Assembly: GCA_949840605.1 (NCBI GenBank)
Contig: CATKXN010000020.1
Location: 1 to 31,358, forward strand
Source: an uncultured Alistipes sp.
Lineage (GTDB): Bacteria; Bacteroidota; Bacteroidia; Bacteroidales; Rikenellaceae
Length of the DNA: 31,358 bases
Direction: 5' to 3'
The position numbers and the translations under genes were made by a program. How positions within the stretch are numbered: position 1 is the first letter of the stretch; every line of letters begins with the position of its first letter. The notes below the pieces were generated by a model, which was not told the DNA's origin, made no database searches, and worked only from the letters and a program-made list of their open reading frames with translations. Below are positions 6,879 through 19,061 of this stretch, one piece after another.

Positions 6879-7775
6879 ATGAAAAAACTCATCCCGTTCA
6901 TTCTCGCCGTTTCACTTTCCGCCGGGTGTCTGGGCCGCCGCACGTCGGACACGGTCGCAAACGGGAGCGTCGATGCTCCTGAAATCGTGATTCCGGAACC
7001 GGCCACGGCAGAAGAGAAGCAGCCGGATGCCGAGCCCGGACCCTGGATTTACCGGGATGGAAGCCGCAAACGGTGGGGCCCCTTCGTGGAAAACGATACG
7101 ACGTTCCTTTTCGTCGAGGAATACCCGCTCGGCAGCGACACGAACCATTACAGGGTCTTCATCCGGAGAGCTCCCCAACCGGCCGACAATGTGAATTTCA
7201 CCGTCCTTTCGCCGCAGAACGAGAGGGAATGGAACGATTTCACCTCCCTGCTGCGCGGGATCAAAAAAAGCCATCCGGAGCCGCTTCCGCACCATGCCGC
7301 ACTGAAAGAACTGCCGCGCAGCTGGACGCCGGTCCGCTCCTTCGGGGGCCGTTATTACGTCGATGGCTTCACCCCCTATCCGGTGTGGATTTCCGATTCG
7401 CTGTTCGTCCGGCAATTCATGGACGGCCCCTGTCCGTCGCTGATCGGGGCGGCTGAACGCGTCACCCCCACGCATTACCGTCTCCGGACATCGGCCGGAT
7501 TTTCGGATATCGACCGGGTGGAGATCCACATCGTGGATACCGTACGCAAGATAGCCGTATTCGCCTTCTGCAACGATGAAAACACGACCTGTTTTCACGA
7601 ACTTTACGCCCCTTTCGAGACCGGGCTCGAAATGGATATGGTCGATTTCTACTCCCTGGAACTGCCCGCAGACGAAGTAAAATGGGACAAGATCGACTTC
7701 GAGGCGCTGATCGCCGGCAAGGCTTCGACCTCCGCCGGTGAAGCTCCGGAAAAGTATAAAATCGAAGAACAATGA
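6879..7775 (+). CDS. Hypothetical lipoprotein
   Basis: 298-aa protein of unknown function. It begins MKKLIPFILAVSLSAGCLG, a short positively charged start, hydrophobic core and lipobox (LSAGC, Cys17), so it should be a lipid-anchored envelope protein. A low-complexity acidic/proline linker occupies about residues 25-55. The remainder is a globular domain with many aromatic residues and beta character, and no motif I recognise. Its TGA stop overlaps the mnmG start codon (ATGA), so translation of the two is probably coupled, although their functions look unrelated. The ORF is long, in the operon frame and has codon use like its neighbours, so it is a real gene. Confidence 0.8.
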   Translation: MKKLIPFILAVSLSAGCLGRRTSDTVANGSVDAPEIVIPEPATAEEKQPDAEPGPWIYRDGSRKRWGPFVENDTTFLFVEEYPLGSDTNHYRVFIRRAPQPADNVNFTVLSPQNEREWNDFTSLLRGIKKSHPEPLPHHAALKELPRSWTPVRSFGGRYYVDGFTPYPVWISDSLFVRQFMDGPCPSLIGAAERVTPTHYRLRTSAGFSDIDRVEIHIVDTVRKIAVFAFCNDENTTCFHELYAPFETGLEMDMVDFYSLELPADEVKWDKIDFEALIAGKASTSAGEAPEKYKIEEQ

Positions 7776-9730
7776 CACTCGATTACGACATCATCGTCAT
7801 CGGCGGCGGACACGCCGGATGCGAAGCCGCCTCGGCCGCCGCACGATTGGGTTCGCGTACGCTGCTGCTCACGATGGACATGGGCAAAATGGCCTCCATG
7901 TCGTGCAATCCGGCAGTCGGCGGAGTAGCCAAAGGACAGATTGTCAGAGAGATAGATGCTCTTGGCGGCCAGATGGGCCGCATCACCGACTTGACGACCG
8001 TCCAGTTCCGGATGCTCAACCGGTCGAAAGGCGCCGCGATGTGGAGCCCCCGGGCGCAATGCGACAAGACCCGCTTCTCGGAAGAGTGGCGCCATACGCT
8101 GGAAAACACCTGGAACCTCTATATCTGGCAGGATGCGGCGACCGAACTGCTGTTCGATGACGCCTTGCACACGACCTCCGCACAACCGAACACCCCGGGC
8201 TCAGAAGCGGACCCGAACCGGGACAACCTCCGGTCCGCCGCGCAGATGCACCGTATCACGGGGGTCCGGACCCGCATGGGGGTCGAATTCACCTGCCGCG
8301 CCGTCGTGCTCACCGCGGGGACCTTCCTCGGGGGACTGATGCACTGCGGAACCTCGCACGCCGAAGGCGGCAGGGCGGGGGACGCCGCCTCGCACGGCAT
8401 CACCGAATGCCTCCGCCGAATCGGTTTCGAGACCGGACGCATGAAAACCGGCACCCCGGCGCGTCTCGACGCCCGGACCATCGATTTCGAACGGCTCGAA
8501 CCCCAGTACGGCGACGAGAAGCCTGCCAAGTTTTCATTCTCCACTGATACACAGCCGGTTAAAGACCAACTGCCGTGTTTTCTGGTCTATACCTCCGCCG
8601 AAGTTCACGACATCCTGCGCAGCGGTTTCGACCAGTCGCCCTTGTTCAACGGAACCATCTGCGGCATCGGTCCGCGCTACTGTCCCTCGATCGAGGACAA
8701 ACTACGGACCTTCGCCGACAAAGACCAGCATCAACTTTTCCTGGAACCCGAAGGCCGCACGACCAACGAATACTACCTCAACGGTTTTTCATCGTCGCTG
8801 CCCTGGGAGGTGCAATGGAAAGCGCTGCACAAGATCAAAGGATTCGAGGATCTGCATATCTATCGTCCCGGATATGCCATCGAATACGACTATTTCCCGC
8901 CTACGCAGCTGCATCATTCCCTCGAAACCAAGCTGGTTTCGGGACTCTATTTCGCCGGACAGGTCAACGGAACGACCGGGTACGAAGAGGCCGCAGCACA
9001 AGGTCTGATGGCCGGAATCAATGCACACCGGGCGCTGGCAGGGGAGGAACCCATCGTGCTGAAACGCGACGAAGCCTATATCGGCGTGCTGATCGACGAT
9101 CTGGTGACCAAGGGGGTCGACGAACCGTACCGCATGTTCACCTCGCGGGCCGAGTACCGCATCCTGCTCCGGCAGGACAATGCCGATATCCGGCTCACTC
9201 CGTTAGGATACGAAATCGGACTGATTTCGCAAAAAAGATACGATCATTTCGTCAAAAAAAATACGCTCGTAGAATCGCTTGTAGAGTATGCACGCCGGCA
9301 GAGTATCAAAGCAGCTGAAATAAACGACTATTTGAAATCGGTCGATTCGGAGCCTTTGACGCAGGGCAGGAAGCTGTACGACATCCTGATGCGCAACAAC
9401 GTCACCTTCGAATCCCTGCAAACGGTCCTTCCCAAACTGAAAAAATTCATCACCGAAAACGAGATGGATGCCGAGGTGATCGAGGAGGCAGAGATACAGA
9501 TCAAATATAAGGGTTACATCGAACGCGAGAAATTCATCGCCGAGAAGCTCCGCCGGCTCGAAAATATCTCTATTCCGAGCGATTTCGATTTCTATTCGAT
9601 GAATTCGCTGACTATCGAAGCCCGCCAAAAACTGTCGCGCATCCGGCCGACAACGATAGGGCAGGCGTCACGAATACCCGGCGTCTCTCCGGCCGACGTC
9701 AACGTCCTGCTGATAAAATTCGGACGATAA
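7772..9730 (+). CDS. mnmG: tRNA uridine 5-carboxymethylaminomethyl modification enzyme MnmG
   Basis: 652-aa FAD-dependent enzyme (GidA) that works with the GTPase MnmE to install the cmnm5 group on U34 of certain tRNAs. The FAD-binding GGGHAG loop is at residues 11-16. Other family blocks seen are MASMSCNPAVGG, PTQLHHSLETK, GLYFAGQVNGTTGYEEAAAQ and PYRMFTSRAEYR, with the helical C-terminal MnmE/tRNA-binding region ending ADVNVLLI. At 652 aa it is slightly longer than usual (about 620-630). The extra length seems to lie at about residues 130-155, a hydrophilic insert rich in Pro, Asn and Ser before AQMHRITGV. Its start overlaps the preceding lipoprotein gene. Two parS-like palindromes lie directly after its stop. 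In many bacteria mnmG sits near the replication origin. Confidence 0.97.
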   Translation: MTLDYDIIVIGGGHAGCEAASAAARLGSRTLLLTMDMGKMASMSCNPAVGGVAKGQIVREIDALGGQMGRITDLTTVQFRMLNRSKGAAMWSPRAQCDKTRFSEEWRHTLENTWNLYIWQDAATELLFDDALHTTSAQPNTPGSEADPNRDNLRSAAQMHRITGVRTRMGVEFTCRAVVLTAGTFLGGLMHCGTSHAEGGRAGDAASHGITECLRRIGFETGRMKTGTPARLDARTIDFERLEPQYGDEKPAKFSFSTDTQPVKDQLPCFLVYTSAEVHDILRSGFDQSPLFNGTICGIGPRYCPSIEDKLRTFADKDQHQLFLEPEGRTTNEYYLNGFSSSLPWEVQWKALHKIKGFEDLHIYRPGYAIEYDYFPPTQLHHSLETKLVSGLYFAGQVNGTTGYEEAAAQGLMAGINAHRALAGEEPIVLKRDEAYIGVLIDDLVTKGVDEPYRMFTSRAEYRILLRQDNADIRLTPLGYEIGLISQKRYDHFVKKNTLVESLVEYARRQSIKAAEINDYLKSVDSEPLTQGRKLYDILMRNNVTFESLQTVLPKLKKFITENEMDAEVIEEAEIQIKYKGYIEREKFIAEKLRRLENISIPSDFDFYSMNSLTIEARQKLSRIRPTTIGQASRIPGVSPADVNVLLIKFGR

Positions 9731-9732
9731 AA

Positions 9733-9746
9733 GTTCCACGTGGAAC
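9733..9746. promoter_or_regulatory. parS-like centromere site 1 (perfect palindrome)
   Basis: GTTCCACGTGGAAC, a perfect 14-bp palindrome located 2 bp after the mnmG stop codon. It matches the core of the chromosomal ParB-binding site (consensus tGTTtCACGTGAAACa; the variant with CC/GG flanking ACGT is found in, for example, Pseudomonas). ParB would load here and spread to organise the origin region. Neither parA nor parB is in the window. Confidence 0.75.
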
Positions 9747-9770
9747 CATTATATAACAAAGACAATAAAC

Positions 9771-9784
9771 GTTCCACGTGGAGC
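9771..9784. promoter_or_regulatory. parS-like centromere site 2
   Basis: GTTCCACGTGGAGC, one mismatch from the perfect palindrome, 38 bp after site 1 and just before the mnmG/ilvE terminator. With one flanking base on each side (CGTTCCACGTGGAGCA) it is identical over 16 bp to the site inside ilvE. Confidence 0.7.
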
Positions 9785-9785
9785 A

Positions 9786-9824
9786 AACAGATAAGGGCCG
9801 CCCGAAAGGCGGCCCTTATCTGTT
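9786..9824. terminator. Bidirectional terminator between mnmG and ilvE
   Basis: A perfect 17-bp inverted repeat (9786-9802 with 9808-9824) encloses a 5-nt loop (CGAAA). The stem has a GC-rich core (GGGCCGCC) and A/T-rich ends. It lies between convergent genes, 55 bp past the mnmG stop and 12 bp past the ilvE stop, so it can serve both. No long T tract follows on either strand; the AT-rich stem ends supply part of the usual signal. Confidence 0.85.
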
Positions 9825-9835
9825 ACATGGGTAGA

Positions 9836-10849
9836 TTACAATACAACCGTACACCAGTCGTACTTATCCTCAGCGCGACCATACTGAATATCCTGTAAAC
9901 GGGTATAAAGTTCAAGGCAATTTTTGCCGACTTCCTCGCCATATTTATATTCAGCCTTAGTCTGCATATCGTATACATAACCGATAGGGGAGATAACGGC
10001 AGCCGTTCCGCAGGCTCCGCATTCCTCGAAAGTAGCCAGCTCTTCGACCGGAATATGACGCTCTTCGACGATCAGACCCATATCCCGGGCAAGTTGACGA
10101 AGACTCATGTTGGTAATCGAGGGGAGCACCGAAGGTGATTTAGGAGTGATATACTTACCCTCTTTGATGCCGAAGAAATTAGCAGCGCCGCACTCTTCAA
10201 TGTACTTATGTTCGGCGGCATCGAGATACATAATATTGGAATACCCCATTTCGTGCCCCTTTTCTCCCGAAAGCAGGCTGGCCGCATAGTTGCCGCCGAC
10301 CTTAACGTCGCCCGTTCCACGTGGAGCAGCGCGGTCCTGTTCCCGGTCGACAGCGACACGGATCGGCTTGATACCGCCCTTGAAATAGGCGCCCACGGGC
10401 GAGCAGTAAACGATCAGCAGGGCTTCCTTGGCTGGTTTCACACCCAGACCGACCGTCGTTCCGAACATCACGGGACGCAGATAGAGCGAAGCACCCGTAC
10501 CGTAGGGAGGGATGAAACGCTCATTGCGCCGGACTACTTCGACGCAGGCATCGACGATCATTTCGATCGAAGGTACCGGCAGGCAAAGACGCTCGGCCGA
10601 CGATTGGAGACGCCGTGCATTGTCAGCGACGCGGAAAAGGCGGACCTTGCCGTCGATACCGCGGAAGGCTTTCAGACCCTCGAAGAGTTCGATGCCGTAA
10701 TGCAGGCACGAAGCCGACATATGCATCTTGATATATTCGTCCTGCGTAACCTCCATCGGGCTCCATTTCCCGTCGGTGTAAGCGTAGCGGACATTCCAAT
10801 CGGTCTTGCAATAGTCAAAACCCAAGGCGCTCCAATCTGTTGTTTCCAT
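9836..10849 (-). CDS. ilvE: Branched-chain amino acid aminotransferase
   Basis: 337-aa PLP-dependent fold-type IV aminotransferase that catalyses the last step of Leu, Ile and Val synthesis and the first step of their breakdown, with 2-oxoglutarate/glutamate as partner. The PLP-binding lysine is Lys183 in GDVKVGGNYAAS. Other family blocks are YGIELFEGLKAFR near the N-terminus, YLRPVMFG, and EECGAANFFGIK followed by the PSITNMSLRQLARD segment that binds the cofactor phosphate. The length is typical of the group with eukaryote-like BCATs. A parS-like site is embedded in its coding sequence at the codons for about residues 174-179. The start lies 48 nt after the metG stop, in the same orientation, so they may share a transcript. 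Confidence 0.96.
   Translation of the reverse strand: METTDWSALGFDYCKTDWNVRYAYTDGKWSPMEVTQDEYIKMHMSASCLHYGIELFEGLKAFRGIDGKVRLFRVADNARRLQSSAERLCLPVPSIEMIVDACVEVVRRNERFIPPYGTGASLYLRPVMFGTTVGLGVKPAKEALLIVYCSPVGAYFKGGIKPIRVAVDREQDRAAPRGTGDVKVGGNYAASLLSGEKGHEMGYSNIMYLDAAEHKYIEECGAANFFGIKEGKYITPKSPSVLPSITNMSLRQLARDMGLIVEERHIPVEELATFEECGACGTAAVISPIGYVYDMQTKAEYKYGEEVGKNCLELYTRLQDIQYGRAEDKYDWCTVVL
10314..10327. promoter_or_regulatory. parS-like centromere site 3, inside ilvE
   Basis: GTTCCACGTGGAGC in the ilvE coding region, about 540 bp from site 2 and identical to it over 16 bp including one flanking base each side. On the coding strand it encodes Ala-Pro-Arg-Gly-Thr, a segment just before the PLP lysine where the ilvE family tolerates variation at the Arg position. 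Confidence 0.65.
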
Positions 10850-16645: not shown

Positions 16646-17587
16646 TTATTTAAGGGCGATCATATTCACGATCGACCGCTCCGCCGCCCGGCGCACCTCC
16701 TCGTCGAGCAGGATTTCGGGGGCTTCGTTCTCGAGACAGGCGCAGATATTCTCCAGGGTCACCATCTTCATATACCGGCAGTTGTTGCAGGCGCAGGTTT
16801 CGTCGTCGGGAGGCGCCGGGATGAAGGTCTTTCCGGGATGGCGTTTCCTCATCTCGGCCAGGATGCCCGACTCGGTCACGACGATAAACGCCTGCGCATC
16901 GCTCCGCCCGCAATACTCCAGAATGCCCGCCGTGGAACCCACGTAATCGGCCGCCTCGAGGATATAGGCGCGGCATTCGGGATGCGCGACGACTTTGGCT
17001 TCGGGATGTTCTCGCTTGAGTTTCAGAAGTTTCTCGAGCGAAAACTCTTCGTGGACATGGCAAGCGCCATTCCACAGCACCATGTTCCGCCGTCCGGTCA
17101 GCTTCTGGATATAGGAGCCCAGGTTGCGGTCCGGGGCGAAGATCACCGGCTGGTCGGCGGGGATGGACTCCACGACCTTCAAGGCGTTGGACGAGGTGCA
17201 GCAGATATCCGTCAGGGCCTTGACGCCGACCGTGGTGTTGACGTAGGAGACCACCGAATGGTCGGGATACCGGGCCTTGAAAGCCGCGAATTCCGCGGCA
17301 TCGCACGACTCGGCCAGCGAGCAGCCCGCCTCGGGACAAGGTATCAGCACCTTTTTTTCAGGGCAGAGGACCTTGGCGGTCTCGGCCATGAAGTGCACCC
17401 CGGCGAAGCAGATGATGTCAGCATCGACCGACTGCGCCCTCACCGACAGGGCGAGCGAGTCGCCCAGGAAGTCGGCTACGGCCTGCACCTCGGGGGTCGT
17501 ATAGTAGTGCGCCAGGATCACGGCGTTTTTCTCCCGCTTGAGTTCCTCGATGCGGCGGCGGAGTGCGGCGGAGTTTTCGGCGTTCAT
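16646..17587 (-). CDS. nadA: Quinolinate synthase A
   Basis: 313-aa [4Fe-4S] enzyme that condenses iminoaspartate with dihydroxyacetone phosphate to quinolinate in de novo NAD synthesis. Family blocks: AVILAHYYTTPEVQ near the N-terminus, ICFAGVHFMAETAK, IPCPEAGCSLAESC (first cluster Cys), WNGACHVHEEF (second Cys) and ACNNCRYMKM (third Cys near the C-terminus). The length fits the short bacterial type. The partner genes nadB and nadC are not in the window. The start codon borders the AT-rich candidate origin region, so its promoter must lie within that gap; I found no clean TAnnTTTG box for it. Confidence 0.96.
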   Translation of the reverse strand: MNAENSAALRRRIEELKREKNAVILAHYYTTPEVQAVADFLGDSLALSVRAQSVDADIICFAGVHFMAETAKVLCPEKKVLIPCPEAGCSLAESCDAAEFAAFKARYPDHSVVSYVNTTVGVKALTDICCTSSNALKVVESIPADQPVIFAPDRNLGSYIQKLTGRRNMVLWNGACHVHEEFSLEKLLKLKREHPEAKVVAHPECRAYILEAADYVGSTAGILEYCGRSDAQAFIVVTESGILAEMRKRHPGKTFIPAPPDDETCACNNCRYMKMVTLENICACLENEAPEILLDEEVRRAAERSIVNMIALK

Positions 17588-17654
17588 TTTTTATTTTTAT
17601 TCTTTTAATTAATTATAAATAATAAAGAAGAATAGATATAATAGCTGTTGATAT

Positions 17655-17666
17655 TGTTGACAACCG
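17655..17666 (-). repeat. DnaA-box-like repeat 1
   Basis: CGGTTGTCAACA on the minus strand. It shares the CGGTTRTCRACA pattern with the two plus-strand copies and resembles the DnaA box TTATCCACA at seven of nine positions (TTGTCAACA). Confidence 0.5.
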
Positions 17667-17773
17667 GAGGTGTTATTTCCCAATCAACACTTTTCTCTTT
17701 TTATGTTTTTTATTTTAAGTTTTATTTATTTGAAAATCAATATAAATAAAAAAAAGATAACAATTGTTGAAAA

Positions 17774-17785
17774 CGGTTGTCGACA
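17774..17785 (+). repeat. DnaA-box-like repeat 2
   Basis: CGGTTGTCGACA, preceded by AA as in repeat 3. The nonamer TTGTCGACA matches the DnaA box at seven of nine positions. Confidence 0.5.
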
Positions 17786-17947
17786 TACCGACAGTCATTT
17801 GTTTTTAACATTCCGTGCCGTTTCCGGCCCCGGCGGCCCCGGCATAACTTCTCATAAAAAAATTTGGTTTCGGCGAAAAGCTGATTATACGGTTTCTCAT
17901 TTTCAAAAAGCAAATTTTCGGCCCTCGACTTTTCACTATTTTTCCAA

Positions 17948-17959
17948 CGGTTATCGACA
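17948..17959 (+). repeat. DnaA-box-like repeat 3
   Basis: CGGTTATCGACA; the nonamer TTATCGACA differs from the DnaA consensus TTATCCACA at a single position, the best match in the gap. It lies 18 bp before the mrp stop codon. Confidence 0.55.
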
Positions 17960-17976
17960 GGTTGTTGGGGGAGTTA

Positions 17977-19029
17977 TCAACCGTTTTTCATCACTTTGGA
18001 AACCACCTTTTCGGCGATCGCCCGGTAGTACTCTTCGACGCGGGGATCGATCCCGGCCGCGGGGCGGCCCTCCTCCCCTCCGTCCATGATCGACTGCACG
18101 ATGGGGATTTCGCCCAGGAAATCCACCCCGCTCCGTTCGGCGAAAGCCCGGGCCCCGCCGTGCCCGAAAATGTAGTAGCGGTTTTCCGGGAGTTCGGCAG
18201 GGGTGAACCACGCCATGTTCTCGATGATGCCCGCCACGGGGATGTTAACGTTTTCGTTGCGGAACATCTCCACGCCGCGCACGACGTCCGCCACGGCGAT
18301 CTGCTGCGGCGTCGAGACGATCACTGCGGCATCGATCTTCAACTCCCCGATGATCGAGAGGTGCACGTCGCCCGTGCCGGGAGGCAGGTCCGCCAGCAGG
18401 AAGTCCAGCGTACCCCACCGGGTCTGGTGGATCATCTGTTTCAGGGCGCTGACGGCCATGGCCCCGCGCCACAGCAGGGCGTCGGTCGGTTTGATGAAGA
18501 AGCCGATCGACATCAGCCGGATGTCCATCGATTCGGCCGGGACGATGCGGTCCATCCCCTCTTCGGAAACGGCTTCGGGGGCATACCCCTCCACGCCGAA
18601 CATCTTGGGCTGCGAGGGACCGTAAATGTCGGCGTCGAGAATGCCCACGCGGAAACCCATGTTCCGCAGGGCTACGGCTAGGTTGGCCGTGACGGTGGAC
18701 TTGCCTACCCCGCCCTTGCCCGAAGCCACGGCGATCACTTTGGCGATGCCGCCCGTCGTGGTCTGCAGCTTGGGTTCGGGGCGCGGTGCGGCGCCGCCCT
18801 CCTTGACGACCACCAGCACCTCGGCGTCCGGAAACGCCTCGCGCAAAAGGGCTTCGGCCTGGTTCTTGATCTTCACCGCGAACGGATCGCGGGCTTTGGC
18901 GAAGCGCAGGACGACCGTGACTTTCCCGTTTGCGGCGGCCGTATGTTCGATGAATCCGCTCGTGACGATGTCCTGTCCCGTTTCGGGATGGACGACCGCA
19001 GCGAGCAGGTGTTTGATTTTTTCTTCCAT
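17977..19029 (-). CDS. Mrp/ApbC-family iron-sulfur cluster carrier ATPase
   Basis: P-loop NTPase thought to carry or deliver Fe-S clusters in the cytoplasm. I choose the start at 19029 (350 aa, MEEKIKHLLAAV): a start 27 nt upstream also exists, but a -7 promoter box at 19054-19061 overlaps it. An N-terminal MIP18-like domain (about residues 1-85, VVHPETGQDIVTSGFIEH) is followed by the ATPase with deviant Walker A VASGKGGVGKST, then DADIYGPSQPKMFG and LLADLPPGTGDVHLS. The CxxC pair that binds the bridging cluster in most Mrp proteins is missing: the segment reads ENMAWFTPAELPENRYYIFG. I recall this form from other Bacteroidetes, so it is probably lineage-typical. It is divergent from sppA. Confidence 0.93.
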   Translation of the reverse strand: MEEKIKHLLAAVVHPETGQDIVTSGFIEHTAAANGKVTVVLRFAKARDPFAVKIKNQAEALLREAFPDAEVLVVVKEGGAAPRPEPKLQTTTGGIAKVIAVASGKGGVGKSTVTANLAVALRNMGFRVGILDADIYGPSQPKMFGVEGYAPEAVSEEGMDRIVPAESMDIRLMSIGFFIKPTDALLWRGAMAVSALKQMIHQTRWGTLDFLLADLPPGTGDVHLSIIGELKIDAAVIVSTPQQIAVADVVRGVEMFRNENVNIPVAGIIENMAWFTPAELPENRYYIFGHGGARAFAERSGVDFLGEIPIVQSIMDGGEEGRPAAGIDPRVEEYYRAIAEKVVSKVMKNG

Positions 19030-19053
19030 GCAGTAAGAAAGGTTTGTCTTTGA

Positions 19054-19061
19054 CAAAGATA
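19054..19061 (-). promoter_or_regulatory. Probable -7 box for mrp
   Basis: TATCTTTG on the minus strand matches TAnnTTTG, 24 nt upstream of the chosen mrp start. Transcription would begin inside any longer version of the ORF, which favours the start at 19029. Confidence 0.5.

Follow-up and report, generated by a model that had tools for sequence, protein, structure and literature searches.

What are the short inverted repeats that lie around mnmG and ilvE in the genome of an uncultured Alistipes species? The window, by which we mean the whole stretch of 31,358 nucleotides that was analysed, carries three of them within a total span of 595 bp. A first-pass annotation had taken them for parS-like centromere sites and the region for the ParB loading zone of the chromosome, and had described a perfect palindrome and two other copies, identical over 16 bp, all within 600 bp and without a further copy in the window. 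This description holds. As listed in Table 1, core 1 is the perfect palindrome; cores 2 and 3 have a single arm mismatch each, the identity between them extends over exactly 16 bp, and beyond cores 1-3 no position in the window comes within two mismatches of the palindrome. All are of the form that marks chromosomal parS sites, an inverted repeat of 14-16 bp with a CACGTG centre and GTT/AAC arms. A first-order Markov model predicts 0.00015 exact copies and 0.0067 copies with at most one mismatch in the whole window, compared with the three observed. When up to three mismatches were allowed, 11 strand-wise matches were found, 6 of them being cores 1-3, since the palindrome is identical on both strands and each site counts twice in such a tally; the mean for shuffled sequences was 5.2, and because 5 of 100 shuffles reached 11, this loose count alone is weak evidence.

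Table 1. Coordinates of the features of the window discussed in the text
Feature	Position	Strand	Description
parS core 1	9733..9746	.	perfect palindrome GTTCCACGTGGAAC, intergenic
parS core 2	9771..9784	.	GTTCCACGTGGAGC, 1 mismatch to palindrome, intergenic, 38 bp from core 1
parS core 3	10314..10327	.	GTTCCACGTGGAGC; reads GCTCCACGTGGAAC on the ilvE strand, inside ilvE
mnmG (gidA)	7772..9730	+	TIGR00136 above cut-off
ilvE, branched-chain aminotransferase	9836..10849	-	TIGR01123 above cut-off; contains core 3
17-bp hairpin	9786..9824	.	fold of + strand, between convergent mnmG and ilvE
nadA	16646..17587	-	TIGR00550 above cut-off; left neighbour of candidate oriC
Candidate oriC	17588..17976	.	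AT-rich spacer, DnaA-box-like words; core 1 is 7.8 kb away
Mrp/ApbC-like P-loop ATPase	17977..19056	-	best match ApbC 2.5e-73, below that model's cut-off; right neighbour of candidate oriC

The coordinates of mnmG and ilvE place cores 1 and 2 between two convergent genes and core 3 in the ilvE reading frame. The window also contains metG, recognised by its family model above cut-off, and its IlvE is 91% identical to the IlvE proteins of A. montrealensis and Alistipes sp. Zagget8, grouping with the latter in a protein tree. One alternative is that the cores are RNA hairpins or transcription terminators and bind no protein. Cores 1 and 2 were both folded and do form 5-bp hairpins of about -6 kcal/mol each, and a terminator scan has a match at core 1, in the minus direction, but one scan match is about the level obtained with shuffled sequence (0.7), a terminator makes little sense within the codons of ilvE, and a far stronger hairpin adjoins the cores. 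That structure folds at -33.3 kcal/mol on the plus strand and -34.6 kcal/mol on the minus strand, with none of 200 shuffles equally stable, and is a probable two-way terminator; the scan, which requires a T run, does not report it. We therefore consider a terminator function of the cores extremely improbable.

All statements on copy number, origin and parB in whole genomes concern relatives, and are extended to the window's own species by inference. Copies of the core with at most one mismatch were found in each of the 61 genomes of the genus, at 1-5 per genome and 140 in total. The reversed pattern, searched as a control in the same genomes, gave 46 matches, or about 0.75 one-mismatch matches per genome, with 30 of the 61 genomes positive, so that a single copy with one mismatch says little when taken alone. 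Of the 35 genomes whose matches were listed in full, 34 had all copies inside a stretch of about 1.3 kb (a single copy in six of these 34), and the exception (G022) had one more copy, with one mismatch, on a different contig. A separate scan of eight Alistipes genomes showed one short cluster in seven, and an extra copy 13.7 kb off in the remaining one (G004). A handful of copies confined to one small arc is what the first-pass annotation had anticipated, and the even scatter round the genome that would have spoken against a centromere was absent in the relatives examined. The same picture emerged from 80 related ilvE loci (1.36 Mb), in which every copy with at most one mismatch fell between a point 100 bp ahead of ilvE and one 2.5 kb past it. 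At least one such core was present within 2.5 kb past the 3' end of ilvE in 72 of these loci; the other eight had no core beyond ilvE, and five loci end early there.

Several relatives carry a changed version of the core. Three genomes (G030, G035 and G059) have only an altered, non-palindromic core, and the altered core GTTCCACGGGGAAC is present in the spacer of four loci (L024, L051, L063 and L068) and, in the opposite orientation, of two others (L065 and L066). In one further locus, L038, the ilvE copy and the intergenic copy have acquired the identical base change (GTTCCACGGGGAAC), as if the site and its reader drift together. A comparison by eye of the DNA-binding helices of ParB in five genomes revealed no obvious change matching this altered core. 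Separately, the surroundings are rearranged in three loci (L021, L023 and L028), with pheS and an ApbC-like gene on the metG side and the metG-ilvE-parS-mnmG block intact, and a 3.5-kb contig titled Ruminococcus flavefaciens (L034) contains Alistipes-like metG, ilvE and parS cores and is probably mis-binned.

The proximity to mnmG extends well beyond the genus. A degenerate core, GYTYCACGTGRARC, was detected in 103 of 119 genomes of the order and in 185 of 198 genomes of the phylum, leaving 16 and 13 genomes, respectively, without a match, while the reversed control matched 9 and 38 genomes, as tallied by eye. One locus of about 3 kb was inspected for each of 30 of the 103 order genomes and for 29 further genomes of the 185, and mnmG was located beside the core in 26 of the 30 Bacteroidales loci and 23 of the 29 Bacteroidota loci, on either side of it. 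Such constant company could also mean that the CACGTG palindrome is a transcription-factor site controlling mnmG or ilvE, and its palindromic shape is indeed operator-like. However, the cores of the window are situated at the 3' ends of convergent genes and in the middle of ilvE, not at a promoter, they occur on both sides of mnmG across the order and phylum loci, and genomes have 1-5 copies, gathered at a single place in 34 of the 35 that were listed in full, which makes regulation of these genes a very unlikely explanation. The gene gidA (mnmG) is among those often found at origins, as described in the accessible part of PMC2099444, and the mnmG-parS link therefore looks like an old association that has survived rather than a new one. 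Neither a parS-mnmG linkage in Bacteroidota nor a codon-conserved parS is described in the titles and abstract openings from partial listings of the literature. The main survey of parS sites is that of Livny 2007, and it is quite possible that these parS positions have been reported before. The remark in the first-pass annotation that little has been published on chromosome segregation in this group of Bacteroidales proved a matter of degree, given that predicted parS clusters exist for Bacteroides caecimuris and Muribaculum intestinale in the available part of PMC10197239.

Chromosomal parS sites near the origin should lie close to the minimum of the GC skew, a location that had been proposed for the cluster. 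In the two relatives in which the distance was measured, this was the case. A 752,845-bp contig of A. montrealensis has its cumulative GC-skew minimum at 391,102 and an exact parS at 398,782, 7.7 kb apart. The second relative, G054, belongs to the same genus and is assembled as a single contig of 3,377,718 bp; 60 evenly spaced 20-kb samples, covering 1.2 of its 3.38 Mb, placed the skew minimum at about 1.13-1.18 Mb and the sampled maximum at about 2.87-3.04 Mb, and a fine scan put the minimum at 1,153,807, which is 7.0-7.6 kb from the cores at 1,160,833 and 1,161,378.

Within the window, the likely candidate for oriC itself is the AT-rich spacer between nadA and the ApbC-like gene, which has a GC content of 0.32; in two relatives, the corresponding spacer and the GC-skew minimum are 0.4-1.3 kb apart. 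The two flanking genes have the same arrangement in 22 of the 80 loci; in the other 58 they are not both within the fetched stretch. The length of the spacer is 385-422 bp in 21 of these 22 loci and 520 bp in one, and conservation is confined to scattered blocks. The DnaA-box-like word TGTNGAHAA is found 88 times in 23 spacer sequences against an expectation of 2.55, an enrichment that is partly post hoc, because the word was picked after viewing the alignment; the window has nine of them, four being in the spacer. The canonical DnaA box, TTATNCACA, was not enriched in the window when one mismatch was allowed (15 found versus 10.8 expected), and one of the matches is inside the candidate oriC. 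As an origin marker, dnaA failed in G054. It is located at C1:3167533, 2.0 Mb along the contig from parS (1.37 Mb in the other direction, should the contig be a closed circle), on the terminus side and 0.13-0.3 Mb past the sampled GC-skew maximum. This agrees with the statement, in the part of PMC4755523 consulted, that a large distance between oriC and dnaA is common in Bacteroidetes.

A centromere of this type requires a ParB protein, and the absence of any parB homologue had been named as an observation that would count against the reading. All 23 Alistipes genomes searched contain parB. The Alistipes protein matches the ParB of PDB entry 6t1f with an E value of 2.2e-52, and the best ParB matches in all 23 genomes contain the GERRWRA motif as well as R173 and G201 (Caulobacter numbering), residues that are absolutely conserved in ParB orthologues according to the section of PMC7383237 available. 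Longer ParB-family open frames of 664-686 aa, which were excluded from this residue count, are present in G005, G040, G049, G054 and G056 (two in G056), and perhaps belong to mobile elements. The ParB gene is near parS in many chromosomes. Such an arrangement was not seen in the relatives examined: parB and parS were on different contigs in eight of eight and are 764 kb apart in G054. In the latter, the only genome viewed for parA, the 290-aa ParB adjoins a 256-aa ParA-like ATPase, which scores below the cut-offs of the ParA models.

The cores might also be sites of the nucleoid-occlusion protein Noc, a descendant of ParB. The NCBIfam Noc model does give the Alistipes protein a higher score than the ParB domain model (218 versus 185 bits), although this is below its own cut-off of 315. 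Yet the contact residues are the R and G of the parS-reading pair, where Noc has Q and R (PMC7383237, in the same section), and the core itself carries the bases of parS, G at position 1 and A at position 6. Sites of Noc are spread over the chromosome. The core sites, in contrast, are clustered near the skew minimum, and we consider a Noc function hardly credible. Taken together, the clustering in relatives, the short distance to the skew minimum and a ParB with parS-type contacts argue for an ordinary centromere of the chromosomal ParABS type. On sequence grounds, we regard cores 1-3 as almost certainly the chromosomal parS centromere of this Alistipes species, so that the reading as a ParB loading zone is supported by way of the relatives (core type, clustering, skew minimum and ParB), with binding as its predicted consequence.

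Compared with known systems, this centromere shows both common and divergent features. The parS of Caulobacter and Bacillus subtilis, GTTTCACGTGAAAC, is the same palindrome except for one base pair per half-site, the fourth base of both halves being C in the core of the window and T in GTTTCACGTGAAAC, and the ParB proteins are homologous across the CTP-binding and DNA-binding parts. For Pseudomonas aeruginosa, a comparison is possible with the available part of PMC4368675. The parS2 and parS3 sites of that organism have the identical 14-bp core TGTTCCACGTGGAACA, its parS cluster is close to oriC, like the Alistipes cluster near the skew minimum, and nine of its ten parS sites are inside coding sequences, a placement that Alistipes shares for one, in ilvE. 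P. aeruginosa differs in the location of parB, which in Alistipes is remote from parS as described above, and in having six diverged, dispersed sites; a search for such sites in one relative, G054, gave 8 scattered one-mismatch matches to GYTYCACGTGRARC versus 27 for the reversed control.

The Alistipes system also appears to differ from that of Caulobacter and B. subtilis in its condensin. Smc was not found above cut-off in any of nine Alistipes relatives, all of which gave weak partial matches (best 1.2e-8), and ScpA was found in none of the nine; among 14 control genomes, Smc was above cut-off in 10 and ScpA was detected in 9. The parS cluster is therefore more likely to act in the ParA-driven movement of the origin than in Smc loading, unless the latter task falls to a condensin that was not recognised. 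B. caecimuris and M. intestinale, members of the same order, agree with this result. The predicted parS clusters of these species come from a Hi-C paper that predicted 1-10 sites per genome in 12 species; they are near the origin and were also used to place it, and no known condensin is reported for the two species in the accessible part of that paper (PMC10197239), which is likewise silent on mnmG and on an ilvE site.

The third of the sites lies inside ilvE. A core with at most one mismatch was present in this gene in 67 of the 80 related loci, always aligned to the same codons, and 12 of the 13 loci without it have 1-2 cores beyond ilvE. The loci had been retrieved with other IlvE peptides, outside the site, and the site itself was therefore not selected for. 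In a codon alignment of 81 sequences, consisting of the 80 loci and the window, the six codons of the ilvE 16-mer rank 1, 2, 4, 6, 7 and 8 among 86 fourfold columns, with a hypergeometric probability of 6e-8 that was calculated after the ranking was known and ignores the linkage of neighbouring codons. It has to be considered whether a conserved protein and a biased choice of codons are enough to produce this pattern, with the site itself non-functional. The residues A, A, P, R, G and T are invariant in all 81 sequences, the Arg is retained by the loci without the site, and one unlinked ilvE gene from another Bacteroidales genome (L312) is two mismatches short of the palindrome. Against this stand the rank of the site's codons among the most conserved fourfold sites of ilvE, and the lack of the core in all 29 other Bacteroidales ilvE genes compared (the best 29 of 56 matches outside G001), all of them without mnmG in the stretch that was fetched. 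Of these 29 genes, 22 encode Leu at the position where this reading of CACGTG requires Arg, and the others Gln (3), Arg (2), His (1) or Lys (1); in the Alistipes set, the position is Arg in all 81 sequences. A by-product therefore seems very improbable, and most likely the ilvE copy is a real site, kept by selection on codons, and one of at least two partly redundant sites. In P. aeruginosa, any one of the four origin-near parS sites suffices (PMC4368675, in the part available).

In a protein tree that retained the site's own residues and excluded the truncated row L048, the presence of the site requires nine changes and fits one gain and about eight losses, with the root not fixed. A tentative scenario, which we consider possible but somewhat less probable than its alternatives together, is that a centromere site arose inside the ilvE of Rikenellaceae, next to a parS linked to mnmG, perhaps when one codon changed from Leu to Arg (CTT to CGT) and so completed CACGTG. 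This would have tied codons of ilvE, and possibly one residue, to chromosome segregation, in a system that lacks Smc-ScpAB and has its parAB and dnaA genes at a great distance from the origin, where the mnmG-parS pair may be the remnant of an old origin cluster in the phylum.

From what is established for ParABS systems, the way in which the locus would work can be outlined. Each core would bind one dimer of an ordinary chromosomal ParB, which is predicted to take up CTP, slide over the flanking mnmG-ilvE DNA and build a partition complex. The newly copied origin regions would then be separated by ParA, whose gene lies with parB at another place on the chromosome. The cluster would be a few kb from the replication origin, which is probably the AT-rich spacer at 17588-17976. 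This kind of site is well known. What the locus appears to add is the codon-bound copy in ilvE, the link to mnmG, the distance that separates the cluster from parAB and dnaA, and a candidate origin. A likely centromere and an origin candidate have been located in common gut anaerobes from sequence alone. One DNA stretch serves an enzyme and, very probably, a centromere, and the resulting constraint can be measured at the level of codons. With no Smc or ScpA detected in the relatives, these bacteria may also provide a natural system in which to ask what ParB and parS do without their usual condensin partner.
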